From Corynebacterium yudongzhengii (lineage in GTDB: Bacteria; Actinomycetota; Actinomycetes; Mycobacteriales; Mycobacteriaceae), in contig NZ_CP026947.1 of NCBI RefSeq assembly GCF_003065405.1, forward strand, positions 1,178,001 through 1,242,000: a stretch of DNA of 64,000 nucleotides. The letters are read 5' to 3'. Below, one piece after another: positions 24,565 through 61,755 of the stretch (the stretch's first letter is position 1; every line of letters starts with the position of its first letter). The notes under the pieces are model-generated. The model had not been told where the DNA came from. It saw nothing but the letters and a program-made list of their open reading frames with translations, and did not search any database. A program made the translations under genes and the position numbers.

Positions 24565-24665
24565 TTGCGCTATCGCTGGTCGAAAGCAGCCTCATCTAAA
24601 GGGCCCTCGCGAGGTCGAGTTCAGTACTCCTTTAGGGGTGACTGCTTTCGACCAGGCGACCGCGT
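24565..24665 (+). repeat. Palindromic intergenic repeat, copy A
   Basis: Outer arms ctggtcgaaagcag (24576-24589) and ctgctttcgaccag (24642-24655) are perfect complements. Between them lies the family core (ctaaaggg, gaggtcgag, agtactcctttagggg). Nearly identical to copy B 211 bases downstream. The gap 24413-24956 holds only this pair and two terminators. Confidence 0.9.
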
Positions 24666-24774
24666 GGGTTATCAGATGCGGTTTTGGTGAGCCCCGGACG
24701 AGACTGCTGGGGAAGGTGTTCCTGGTGGGGCAACTGACTGTTTGTACTGCACACACCGCACGCTGATCGTGCGT

Positions 24775-24875
24775 GTTGCGTTAGCGCTGGTCGAAAGCAG
24801 CCTCATCTAAAAGGCTCTCGCAAGGTCGAGTTCAGTACTCCTTTAGGGGTGACTGCTTTCGACCAGGCGGCACCC
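24775..24875 (+). repeat. Palindromic intergenic repeat, copy B
   Basis: Same perfect 14-bp outer arms (24787-24800 and 24853-24866) and almost the same core as copy A. The left flank reads gcgttagcg where copy A has gcgctatcg. Lies between the cupin gene and tRNA-Leu, which point towards each other. Confidence 0.9.
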
Positions 24876-24914
24876 AAAACCGCCTGGCCGCCAGAACCGC
24901 CCAGAACCCCAACC

Positions 24915-24949
24915 AGCAGAAAACCGCCAACTCCTTAAAGAGTTGGCGG
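24915..24949 (-). terminator. Terminator of tRNA-Leu
   Basis: On the minus strand ccgccaactc and gagttggcgg form a perfect 10-bp stem (24924-24949) followed by ttttctg. It starts 8 bases after the tRNA 3' end. Confidence 0.85.
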
Positions 24950-24956
24950 CCTATCG

Positions 24957-58549: not shown

Positions 58550-59353
58550 ATGCTGAACAATCTCAAACGAGTGCGCACCCGTCACCTCGCGCTCGCCAAG
58601 AACTCCTCCGAGCCCATCTCTATGCTCACCGCCTATGACGCCCTCACTGCCCGCGTCTTCGACGAGGCCGGCATCGACGTCCTCCTCGTTGGCGACTCCG
58701 CCGCCAACGTCATGCTGGGTCTCGACTCCACGCTCGAGATCACCCTCGACGAGATCATCATGATGGCCCGTGCCGTCACTCGCGCTACGAGGCGCGCCCT
58801 GGTGGTCGTCGACATGCCTTTCGGCACCTATGAAGCCAGCGACGAGGATGCCGTCCGCAACGCCGTGCGCATCATGCGCGAGACTGGCGCCGCCGCCGTG
58901 AAGCTCGAGGGCGCCCGCACCTCCACCATCGGCCGCATCGTCGACGCCGGCATCCCCGTCATGGGGCATCTCGGCTTCACCCCGCAGTCGGTGCACGCGC
59001 TCGGCGGTCACCGCGTCCAGGGCCGCGACGCGGATGCTGCGCGCCTCATCGAGAAAGCCCGCGCCGTCGAGGCCGCCGGGGCATTTTCGTTGGTCGTCGA
59101 AATGATTCCCGCGGCCGTGGGTGCGGACGTCTCGGCGGCTGTCGATATCCCCGTCATCGGCATCGGCGCAGGCAACGGCACCGACGGCCAGGTCCTCGTC
59201 TGGGCCGACGCCATGGGCATGAGCGCACATTCTCCGTCGTTTGTGCGCCAGTACGCCGCACTTGGCGATCAGCTCCGCCAGGCCGCCGAGTCCTACCGTA
59301 ATGACGTGCGCGAACGCACGTTTCCCTCAACACAGGAGTCCTTCGATCACTAA
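58550..59353 (+). CDS. panB: 3-methyl-2-oxobutanoate hydroxymethyltransferase
   Basis: A 267-aa ketopantoate hydroxymethyltransferase, the first committed step of pantothenate synthesis. Motifs: SMLTAYDALTARVFDEAG, LLVGDSAANVMLGLDSTL, GHLGFTPQSVHALGG and AVDIPVIGIGAGNGTDGQVL. The gene is complete and ends overlapping panC (TAATG). A leaderless promoter with a palindromic operator lies just upstream. Confidence 0.96.
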   Translation: MLNNLKRVRTRHLALAKNSSEPISMLTAYDALTARVFDEAGIDVLLVGDSAANVMLGLDSTLEITLDEIIMMARAVTRATRRALVVVDMPFGTYEASDEDAVRNAVRIMRETGAAAVKLEGARTSTIGRIVDAGIPVMGHLGFTPQSVHALGGHRVQGRDADAARLIEKARAVEAAGAFSLVVEMIPAAVGADVSAAVDIPVIGIGAGNGTDGQVLVWADAMGMSAHSPSFVRQYAALGDQLRQAAESYRNDVRERTFPSTQESFDH

Positions 59354-60135
59354 TGCGCGTTATTGAAAACCCGGCCGATTTCCCCACGCTTGAAGGCACG
59401 GTGGGCTTCGTTCCCACCATGGGGGCGCTTCACGACGGCCACGCCTCCCTCATCACCGCCGCCCGCACAAACAACGACACCGTGGTGGTGAGCGTCTTCG
59501 TCAATCCCCTCCAGTTCAACGAGCCGGAAGATTATGACAACTACCCCCGGGATCTCGACTCTGACCTTAAGTTTCTTTCCGAACTCGGAGTCGATATCGT
59601 GCTCGCGCCCACCGTGGAGCACATGTATCCCGGCGGTGGGCCGATCGTGACGGTGAGCACCGGCGAGATGGGCACCGTGCTCGAGGGCGCGTCCCGGCCG
59701 GGGCATTTCGATGGCGTGGCGACGGTCGTCGCCAAGCTTTTTAACATCGTGCGCCCTCACCGGGCCTACTTTGGGCAGAAGGATGCGCAGCAGGTGGCCG
59801 TCGTGAAGCGGCTGGTCGCAGACCTCAACCTAGGTGTGGAGATCCTGGCCGCGCCGATCGTGCGGGCCGCCGACGGGCTCGCGGAATCGAGCCGCAACCG
59901 GCGTCTCTCCCCCGCCGAACGCGAGCAAGCGCTCGCGCTTCCGCGCGCGCTGGAGGCGCTGGCCGAGGGCGCAGATCTTGCGCACGTGCGCGCACGCCTG
60001 GCTGCTGAGGTCGATGTCGATTACCTCGTGGTGGTCGATCCCGAGACGCTGAGCGAGACGCGCGAGCGTCCGGCGTTGGCTCTCGGGGCGGTGTGGGTGG
60101 GCCCGGTGCGGCTGATCGATAACCGAGAGATCTGA
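59353..60135 (+). CDS. panC: Pantothenate synthetase
   Basis: A 260-aa ligase joining pantoate and beta-alanine. Nucleotidyltransferase motifs are VPTMGALHDGHASLI (HIGH-like), VFVNPLQFNEPEDYDNYPRD, and GQKDAQQVAVVKRLVADLN. The C-terminal signature AESSRNRRLSPAEREQA is present. The ATG overlaps the panB stop by one base, so the two are translationally coupled. panD is not in the window. Confidence 0.95.
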   Translation: MRVIENPADFPTLEGTVGFVPTMGALHDGHASLITAARTNNDTVVVSVFVNPLQFNEPEDYDNYPRDLDSDLKFLSELGVDIVLAPTVEHMYPGGGPIVTVSTGEMGTVLEGASRPGHFDGVATVVAKLFNIVRPHRAYFGQKDAQQVAVVKRLVADLNLGVEILAAPIVRAADGLAESSRNRRLSPAEREQALALPRALEALAEGADLAHVRARLAAEVDVDYLVVVDPETLSETRERPALALGAVWVGPVRLIDNREI

Positions 60136-60233
60136 GACGTTCCCGTCTCATTGCGTGGATATTTGCTCTCATGGTATGGGAATGGCTAGTGTCTTACCGG
60201 TACCTGATGATCTAAACCATTGAGAGTTTGACC

Positions 60234-61598
60234 ATGTCCACCGCTACCTCCACTGCCGTCCGGTCCGGCGAGAATCTCACTCGCCGAGACCGGGTGCGTG
60301 TGAACTTCGCATCGACCATCGGCACCACGGTCGAGTTTTATGACTTCTACGCCTATGCCACCGCCGCCGTGGCCGTTTTTCCGTACCTGTTTTTCGCGGA
60401 GACGGATAACCCGACCGTCGCTCTGCTGCAGTCCTTCGCCACCTTCGGCCTGGCGTTCATCGCCCGCCCACTGGGCTCGGTGATCTTCGGCCACTTCGGC
60501 GATAGGGTGGGCCGGAAGGCGACGCTCGTCGGTGCGCTGCTGACGATGGGCATTGCGACCTTCATCATCGGCATCCTGCCCACCTACGCGCAGGTAGGAC
60601 TCTGGGCGCCGGCACTGTTGGCGTTGATGCGTTTCTGCCAGGGCCTCGGCCTCGGCGGCGAGTGGTCGGGCGCGGCGCTGCTATCCTCCGAATACGCCGT
60701 GCAAGGCAAGCGCGCTCAGGCGGCGATGTGGCCGCAGTTCGGTGCACCGTTTGGCTTCTTTTTGGCCAATGGGCTGTTCCTGATTCTCGTCGCGACCCTG
60801 GGCTACAACCTGGGCGATACCACCGGCCCGTTCATGGAGTGGGGCTGGCGTGTCCCCTTCTTGCTGTCCGCCGTCATGGTCATCGTCGGCCTGTACGTGC
60901 GTTTCAAGCTCGAAGAGACCCCGGTGTTCCAGACGGCCGTCGATACCGGCAAGAAGGTCTCCTCCCCGCTCGGTGAAGTCTTCCGGACCTCCTGGCGAGC
61001 ACTGTTCTCCGGCACCTTCATCATGGTCGGCTGCTACACGCTGTTCTACATCGTGACCACGTGGATCCTCTCCTTCGGTATCGCGGATCCGGAGGCCGGC
61101 GGCGTCGGGCTGGGTATCCCCTACATCGCCTTCCTGGAGATCCAGGTGATCACCATCTTCGCCTTCATGGGCGGAATCCCGCTGGCCTCCTGGCTTGCCG
61201 ACAACTGGGGCCGCCGCCCCACCCTCGGCTGGACCACCGTCGCGATCATCATCTTCGGCCTGACCTTCAACTGGCTTCTGAACCCGGAGACCGCGACCAT
61301 GCTGAGCGTCGGCATCTTCTTGGGCGTAGGCATGTTCCTCATGGGCATGATCTTCGGTCCGATGGCCGCGATCCTGCCCGAGCTCTTCCCCACCAACGTC
61401 CGCTACACCGGCTCCGGCATCGCCTACAACGTCTCCTCGATCCTGGGCGCGGCCGTCGCCCCCTTCATCGCGACGGCGTTGGCCGCGAGCATCGGTGTCC
61501 AGGCCGTCGGTTGGTACCTAATCGCTGTGTCGGCTGTGTCGCTTATCGCGGTTCTCCTCGCGCGCGAGACCAAGAACGACGACATGACGCAGATCTAG
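60234..61598 (+). CDS. MFS transporter, metabolite:H+ symporter (MHS) family
   Basis: A 454-aa 12-helix transporter of the MHS group, which imports organic acids such as shikimate, citrate or proline. Group features: FASTIGTTVEFYDFYAYATA at the start of helix 1, and the helix 2-3 loop GHFGDRVGRKATL; RFCQGLGLGGEWSGAALL is in helix 4. The substrate cannot be told. ATG 60234 is the likely start; TTG 60228 would add two residues. It is separated from panC by 98 bases and is not obviously in its operon. Confidence 0.9.
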   Translation: MSTATSTAVRSGENLTRRDRVRVNFASTIGTTVEFYDFYAYATAAVAVFPYLFFAETDNPTVALLQSFATFGLAFIARPLGSVIFGHFGDRVGRKATLVGALLTMGIATFIIGILPTYAQVGLWAPALLALMRFCQGLGLGGEWSGAALLSSEYAVQGKRAQAAMWPQFGAPFGFFLANGLFLILVATLGYNLGDTTGPFMEWGWRVPFLLSAVMVIVGLYVRFKLEETPVFQTAVDTGKKVSSPLGEVFRTSWRALFSGTFIMVGCYTLFYIVTTWILSFGIADPEAGGVGLGIPYIAFLEIQVITIFAFMGGIPLASWLADNWGRRPTLGWTTVAIIIFGLTFNWLLNPETATMLSVGIFLGVGMFLMGMIFGPMAAILPELFPTNVRYTGSGIAYNVSSILGAAVAPFIATALAASIGVQAVGWYLIAVSAVSLIAVLLARETKNDDMTQI

Positions 61599-61645
61599 CG
61601 GTGGTGCTTTGGGTGGGGTTTTCTTGCGGTGTGGTCTTGGTTGTG

Positions 61646-61755
61646 CATGGTGCGCTATCGCTGGTAGAAATGAGTAGCATCTAAAGGAGTGCTGGTTTCG
61701 ACCGCGCGGGACTCGTTTAGGGGCACCTCCTTTCGACCAGCGCAAACGCACTATG
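61646..61755 (-). repeat. Palindromic intergenic repeat, copy G (inverted)
   Basis: The reverse complement (from 61755) reads catagtgcgtttgcgctggt and then matches copies E and F through the core. The core therefore points the other way to the six other copies. It is a single copy, between the convergent MHS transporter and ufaA-like genes. Confidence 0.88.

Follow-up and report, generated by a model that had tools for sequence, protein, structure and literature searches.

P, a lineage-expanded mosaic palindromic repeat of Corynebacterium yudongzhengii with probable REP/BIME-like, RAYT-independent character

The 64-kb stretch analyzed here (bases 1,178,001-1,242,000 of NZ_CP026947.1, the single 2,511,302-base contig of Corynebacterium yudongzhengii; hereafter the window) harbors an intergenic, imperfectly palindromic repeat of about 110 bp, which raises the question of what this element is and how it came to occupy its sites. 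A first-pass annotation, made from the window alone, considered a family similar to repetitive extragenic palindromic (REP) sequences or miniature inverted-repeat transposable elements (MITEs), a structural RNA or a bidirectional terminator. We found that the repeat, termed P, has at least 193 non-overlapping copies at 99 sites in the 2.51-Mb genome. P is probably a lineage-specific, non-autonomous mosaic palindromic repeat resembling REPs and bacterial interspersed mosaic elements (BIMEs), expanded in this lineage independently of REP-associated tyrosine transposases (RAYTs).

The window copies belong to a genome-wide family

Repeat finding revealed seven P copies in the window, each ~110-116 bp long; six are on the plus strand, and a seventh (61640-61755) scores higher on the minus strand. 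A profile built from 51 copies returned the same seven with no eighth at E <= 1e-3, in agreement with the first-pass count. Six of the seven are paired at a distance of 210-233 bp, and the five window copies tested have folding z-scores from -3.0 to -7.2.

Far from being restricted to these seven, P makes up ~0.8% of the genome. The count of 193 comes from a profile scan confined to 367 kb in the vicinity of known matches and is therefore a lower bound; 169 copies score at least 60 bits and only 10 fall below 40 bits. The covariance-model search proposed in the first-pass annotation, with a model from 51 copies, scored at least 150 places in the genome, all at E <= 6e-20. Likewise, the pattern CGNGGTCGAAANNNNNNCTCCTTT with at most two mismatches gave 166 matches genome-wide (78+88), against none for the reversed control. 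The 99 sites comprise 30 single, 46 double, 21 triple and 2 quadruple arrangements, with the same orientation in 80 of 94 neighboring copy pairs and an array period of ~210 bp.

Each unit of ~110 bp bears the octamer GGTCGAAA at its outer-left and central positions, and TTTCGACC at its outer-right position. Among the 169 copies at or above 60 bits, all three positions could be placed in 158, on which the following counts are based, the other 11 being left out. Exact GGTCGAAA is present at the outer left in 129 and at the center in 133 copies, and exact TTTCGACC at the outer right in 113. The spacing is strikingly fixed: 35 bp from left to center in 151 copies, and from center to right 33 bp in 133, 32 bp in 14 and 42-44 bp in 10, the last being about one helical turn longer. 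In 53 standard-spaced copies with full flanks, most octamer positions carry 1.5-2.0 bits, and so do parts of two further blocks, AAA.GAGTC and CTCCTTT. Of the 15 occurrences of GGTCGAAA in the window, counting both strands, 14 are inside P copies. The first-pass description of about three octamers per unit (two direct, one inverted) is correct when variants are counted, but not for exact octamers, as the copy at 50115 is the only one in the window with all three exact.

Arrays contain homologous spacers and a second palindromic family

Many spacers between neighboring P copies are mutually homologous and are found in both orientations relative to P; a spacer profile retained 48 of 94 spacers in its final round (56 in an earlier round). 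The longer spacers often contain Q, a second palindromic family of ~118 bp with the motif CTTGAAGG/CCTTCAAG, some copies of which have an inner deletion. In the scanned stretches, 29 of 31 Q matches lie 30-81 bp from a P copy, often at 56-59 bp, whereas one of the other two is 168 bp away and the second, a remnant in the window, ~5 kb. A genome-wide search placed Q at 38 distinct positions (40 of 45 candidates scored), nine of which are away from known P sites.

Nearly identical blocks recur at separate sites. A block made of part of P, a spacer, P and part of Q on the dnaA side (1761-2083) matches 2383300-2383624 over 325 bp with 98.8% identity, of which ~305 bp are identical, while two mutually inverted copies of a 384-bp P-spacer-P block, 95% identical, are located at 2221.5 and 2223.4 kb.

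Two of these loci deserve a brief description. The P array at 1695-2011 (L021) begins 18 bp past the called end of dnaA, the product of which was assigned to DnaA by Pfam; beyond it follow an IS-like (insertion sequence-like) segment (2316-3292), 100% identical to 882961-883937, and a shortened Q element. At 2221503-2223487 (L006), the inverted, near-identical P-spacer-P arrays flank an open reading frame (ORF) of 326 residues (L006:1968-2948) in a layout like that of a composite transposon. Its product resembles a DUF559/Vsr-type protein; as a candidate nuclease linked to P it was dismissed, since one case does not make an association.

Arms pair less well within a copy than between copies

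In the predicted folds of the 158 copies, the outer arms pair in 134, the center with the right arm in 19, and an inner stem forms in 91. The median folding z-score is -4.4, and the mean energies of both strands are equal. However, RNAalifold on 51 copies gave a consensus of only seven pairs, between the central and the right octamers, none of which is compensatory.

Selection for a hairpin predicts that arms pair better within a copy than between copies. The opposite was found. The inner arms pair at -12.9 kcal/mol within a copy, weaker than the -15.3 +- 0.38 kcal/mol of arms shuffled between copies. The same holds with one copy per site (-12.7 versus -15.5 +- 0.54 kcal/mol; 82 of 99 sites) and for the outermost arms (-12.6 versus -14.0 +- 0.37; 80 sites), and pairing as weak as that observed occurred in none of 2000 shuffles in each of six arm tests. 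This weak pairing is due to heterotypic arms, with ATAGAAA opposite CCTAAA: a left ATAGAAA is combined with a right CCTAAA in 50 copies and the reverse in 15, compared to 11 and 5 copies with matched types. The excess has a Fisher p of 6e-6 in these 81 of 158 copies and of 0.003 with one copy per site, values overstated by the kinship of the copies; the remaining 77 copies carry other arm types. Heterotypic arms could result from common descent from a heterotypic ancestor as well as from the loss of near-perfect palindromes. Altogether, the absence of compensatory pairs among the seven and the poorer pairing within copies give no support to a structural RNA, and Rfam 15 at gathering score has no match to P, its sole family match in the window being one tRNA.

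P is confined to one lineage, with similar families in a few relatives

Among 201 Corynebacterium genomes, strong P matches are present only in this one; with stricter filters, three others gave weaker matches (E 1e-4 to 1e-3). A loose palindrome pattern run on 242 genomes found 151 matches here against 0-5 elsewhere, except for three genomes with 19, 14 and 12. The last two, G026 and G136, were rejected as P carriers, as most of their matches bear another palindrome, GTCGAAAAGC...GCTTTTCGAC, which is also seen at single places in other Corynebacterium genomes. No P match was found in plasmids or phages; one pattern match in a viral contig (L306) falls within an ORF, shows no obvious palindrome and was taken as chance.

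The corresponding loci of relatives point in the same direction. A profile scan of 99 such loci (919 kb) detected no P up to E 10 under default filters; switching the filters off brought up seven scraps (E 1.6-8.8) and nothing more, compared to 99 bits for a positive-control stretch. Both the FTHFS and the PDDEXK nuclease genes were found in 13 of 19 relative FTHFS loci; 12 of these have a convergent gap of 18-54 bp and the last one of 181 bp, compared to 573 bp here. Similarly, the helicase/M24 peptidase gap, 453 bp here, is only 17-131 bp in 25 of the 58 relative loci, out of 80 helicase loci, that have the pair; it is 34 bp in C. tapiri, the closest named record among the matches listed, the helicase of which is 71% identical.

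Three other genomes possess families of similar design. A ~88-bp family of its own occupies 11 sites in G155; among nine members, compensatory change is seen in 5 of 34 stem pairs. The G032 family is characterized by GGTCGATAGG/CCTATCGACC; 8 of 32 pairs are compensatory in six members, mostly through member L069, which has GTTCGAAAGG at five places. In G112, a smaller set of mixed composition centers on GGTCGAGAGG and GGTCGAAAGG. Judging from weak model scores and the shared layout, these families and P are likely to descend from a common ancestor. Of the outcomes that the first-pass annotation had named as speaking against its proposal, neither a restriction to seven copies nor an Rfam match was seen; P itself is indeed absent from related genomes, but similar families are not.

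These families invite a broader and rather less probable proposal, that P belongs to a class of multi-motif palindromic repeats that would have spread through the genus without RAYT by means of a putative enzyme, each lineage having its own recognition motif that tends to change together in the arms of an element. The arms in C. yudongzhengii would be kept non-complementary, avoiding long perfect palindromes while the protein sites stay intact. The motif would be GGTCGAAA in P, CTTGAAGG in Q, GGTCGATA in G032 (one member of which has GTTCGAAA throughout) and, for part of G112, GGTCGAGA. The concerted change is weakened, however, because some members mix motifs, namely L063 and L068 of G032 (GGTCGAAA with GGTCGATA) and L064 of G112 (GGTCGAAA with GGTCGAGA).

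P sits at gene 3' ends, mainly between convergent genes

With genes called by a purpose-written codon-based caller, 96 of the 99 sites could be classed, the other three lying at stretch edges: 55 are convergent, 35 tandem and 6 divergent. Convergent and divergent junctions are equally numerous on a circular chromosome, and the ratio of 55 to 6 is therefore a strong bias (binomial 5e-11). The 55 is moreover an undercount, because the caller classed sites A and B of the window as tandem despite the tRNA and Pfam evidence. At 30 of the 35 tandem sites, A and B among them, the array is closer to the 3' end. A called gene overlaps the array by more than 40 bp at only one of the 96 sites.

In the window, as the first-pass annotation had stated, three of the four sites are convergent according to Pfam and Rfam: cupin(+)/tRNA(-), FTHFS(+)/PDDEXK nuclease(-) and MFS(+)/CMAS(-); the fourth, helicase(+)/M24 peptidase(+), is tandem. 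The coordinates are given in Table 1.

Table 1. P copies, spacers and the Q remnant in the window
Feature	Position	Strand	Context
P copy 1, pair A	24561..24669	+	
Spacer, pair A, homologous spacer family	24670..24771	+	
P copy 2, pair A	24772..24881	+	
P copy 1, pair B	36402..36511	+	
Spacer, pair B	36512..36634	+	
P copy 2, pair B	36635..36744	+	
P copy 1, pair C, three exact octamers	50115..50223	+	
Spacer, pair C, homologous spacer family	50224..50324	+	
P copy 2, pair C	50325..50434	+	
Remnant of palindromic family Q (motif CTTGAAGG/CCTTCAAG)	56596..56644	-	Convergent gap 56565-56752, ~5 kb from nearest P
Single P copy, site D	61646..61755	-	

The window also contains a perfect tandem duplication of a 32-bp unit (8129-8192) and two related 36-bp stretches (17576-17611 and 23287-23322), both ending in GCAGACTTGACTGGA.

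Such positions are what one would expect if P served as a bidirectional transcription terminator or a stabilizer of mRNA 3' ends, kept for its action on both strands, and the frequent pairing of the outer arms, the low folding z-scores and the equal mean energies of the two strands agree with this role. Nevertheless, we regard it as unlikely. The FTHFS/PDDEXK junction of relatives is free of P and in 12 of 13 loci only 18-54 bp long, arms pair worse within a copy than when shuffled, and arrays of two to four copies would seem to exceed the need of a terminator. A terminator-like hairpin with a T run precedes P at 28 of 108 gene ends, about as often as at ends without P (19 of 60). With P included, such a structure at or below -8 kcal/mol is predicted at 42 of 108 ends against 13 of 60, but over unequal lengths (~200 versus 150 bp), and these counts do not decide the matter. 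Furthermore, parasitic repeats of pneumococcus show the same convergent bias (PMC3049150). Of the terminator proposed in the first-pass annotation, the location fits; terminator-like hairpins are about as frequent before P as at 3' ends without it.

Chromosome organization and transposases

The rigid 35/33-bp spacing could also indicate that P arrays are sites of a nucleoid or chromosome-organizing protein that reads three GGTCGAAA octamers in a fixed geometry. The conservation of most octamer positions at 1.6-2.0 bits in the standard-spaced copies and the ten variants longer by about one helical turn are consistent with such a protein, although the variants may represent a single sub-lineage. 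With the origin set at coordinate 1 near dnaA, orientation shows no clear bias between the chromosome halves (55/51 and 47/40) and P density is only mildly higher on the origin side. Besides, the other 200 genomes of the genus gave no strong P match, unlike what a core chromosome function would show. This role is accordingly quite improbable in our view.

As to transposases, the genome has no match to Y1_Tnp (PF01797), which was detected in 5 of 14 control genomes; the linkage to a RAYT that the first-pass annotation suggested checking is thus refuted for this genome. Among the transposase domains near P, Transposase_mut (4) and MULE (3) lead, counted in 140 of 192 flanking ORFs and in the first 25 of 226 families, a range that does not extend to families with a single member. 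At the ends of 99 arrays, direct repeats are not in excess over shuffled partners; the ends used are those of the model, and a duplication farther out would be missed. Two IS types near the arrays, read by eye, have ends (GGTCAAGTCCGCGGGAG... and CTAGGGCGTGTCTGACAAT...) that do not resemble those of P, and no transposase with matching ends was found there. A classical MITE, mobilized by an IS transposase whose own terminal inverted repeats match those of the element, is therefore a very improbable identity for P, despite its long terminal inverted repeats with outer arms pairing in most folds, the IS-like segments adjoining several arrays and the Transposase_mut domains in 4 of 140 flanking ORFs. 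Of the "REP/MITE-like" label in the first-pass annotation, the REP-like part (high-copy, intergenic, at gene 3' ends, lineage-specific) stands, and the strict MITE does not.

Repeated IS-like segments of two kinds lie beside or between P arrays, near 2.3, 882 and 2211 kb and near 967, 2139 and 2279 kb; one kind was taken as IS256-like, and the other has the ends CTAGGGCGTGTCTGACAAT.

A model for the spread of P

The copy number, the array layout, the fixed octamer spacing, the 3'-end bias and the restriction to one lineage, together with the short P-free junctions of relatives at two sites, the near-identical blocks and the similar-motif families elsewhere, lead us to favor the REP/BIME-like, RAYT-independent repeat. 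We propose that P spread through the genome both as solitary units and in P-spacer-P or P-Q-P blocks. Its copies would have come to rest behind genes, for the most part where two genes converge and an insertion is least costly. The octamer trio (two direct, one inverted) may provide the recognition sites for a putative protein: an enzyme responsible for copying the blocks, or a DNA-binding protein of the host by which the blocks are captured or bridged. Such a copying enzyme would not be a Y1/RAYT transposase encoded in this genome. Copies approaching perfect palindromes would be lost, leaving those with non-complementary arm pairs to survive. Part of the spread may be mere recombination and duplication between existing copies.

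Several observations weigh against this model. In addition to the missing target duplications and the lack of a transposase with matching ends described above, the comparison includes one strain of the species, and movement itself was not observed. The duplicated blocks that were read break off within P or Q, or else ~60 bp beyond P, and not where a P copy cleanly ends; such breakpoints would suit recombination or gene conversion better than cut-and-paste. Moreover, the helicase/M24 junction is not short everywhere: in 33 of 58 relatives the gap is 363-850 bp, and in the three long gaps read by eye (L175, L186 and L192) there is other sequence resembling a further gene.

A lineage-confined family of ~200 copies in a genome without a Y1 match points to another route of spreading or to another binding protein, and P, with the related-motif families in a few other Corynebacterium species, provides a clean system in which to seek either. 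Owing to its position at many gene 3' ends, P could influence where transcripts end, how the genome rearranges and how strains are typed.

Comparison with known repeat families

In its distribution, P resembles both REP/RAYT elements and MITEs. We file it under neither, because the MITE test of target duplication fails along with three REP/RAYT features, namely the short tagged unit, the Y1 transposase and the alternating orientation. The NIME/dRS3 repeats of Neisseria are similar in that ~20-bp inverted-repeat units alternate with short repeat units in intergenic arrays. The inverted repeat of P is much longer (~110 bp), and no link to a recombinase was found for P.

No description of the P family was found among the open-access papers listed for Corynebacterium repeats, for Actinobacteria RAYT/REPIN or for the motif letters. 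As far as the available text goes, an account of small RNAs in C. glutamicum names palindromic repeats only for CRISPR (PMC4046766), and the main text of PMC12306157, PMC3733652 and PMC2817692 has no mention of Corynebacterium. The genome set of PMC2267715 includes C. diphtheriae.

The closest likeness to REPs and BIMEs lies in the high copy number, the intergenic location, the 3'-end and convergent bias, the species-specific expansion and the mosaic arrays. REPs are reported mostly between unidirectional and convergent ORFs (PMC3733652); they are characterized by a tagged unit of 20-40 bp, alternating orientation in BIMEs and an association with RAYT, the GTAG-type REPs being tied to these transposases (PMC2817692, PMC3733652). 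By contrast, P is ~110 bp long, carries GTAG or CTAC close to an end (within 14 nt) in 32 of 169 copies, mostly points in the same direction as its neighbor, and resides in a genome without a Y1/RAYT match. In this last respect it resembles the CGTC-tagged REPs, including Rickettsia RPE and its relatives, which are reported without a dedicated transposase (PMC3733652). Judged by description, it differs from RPE in the tag, as CGTC or GACG occurs within 14 nt of an end in just 9 of 169 copies.

The pneumococcal BOX, RUP and SPRITE repeats form clusters and hairpins, hardly occur outside one or two species and are over-represented between convergent genes, BOX being modular (PMC3049150). By description, P differs from BOX and RUP in one respect: these reportedly generate target duplications (PMC3049150), and none was detected for P. 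P shares with these repeats the modularity (of BOX), the clustering, the hairpins, the confinement to a species and the bias towards convergent genes.

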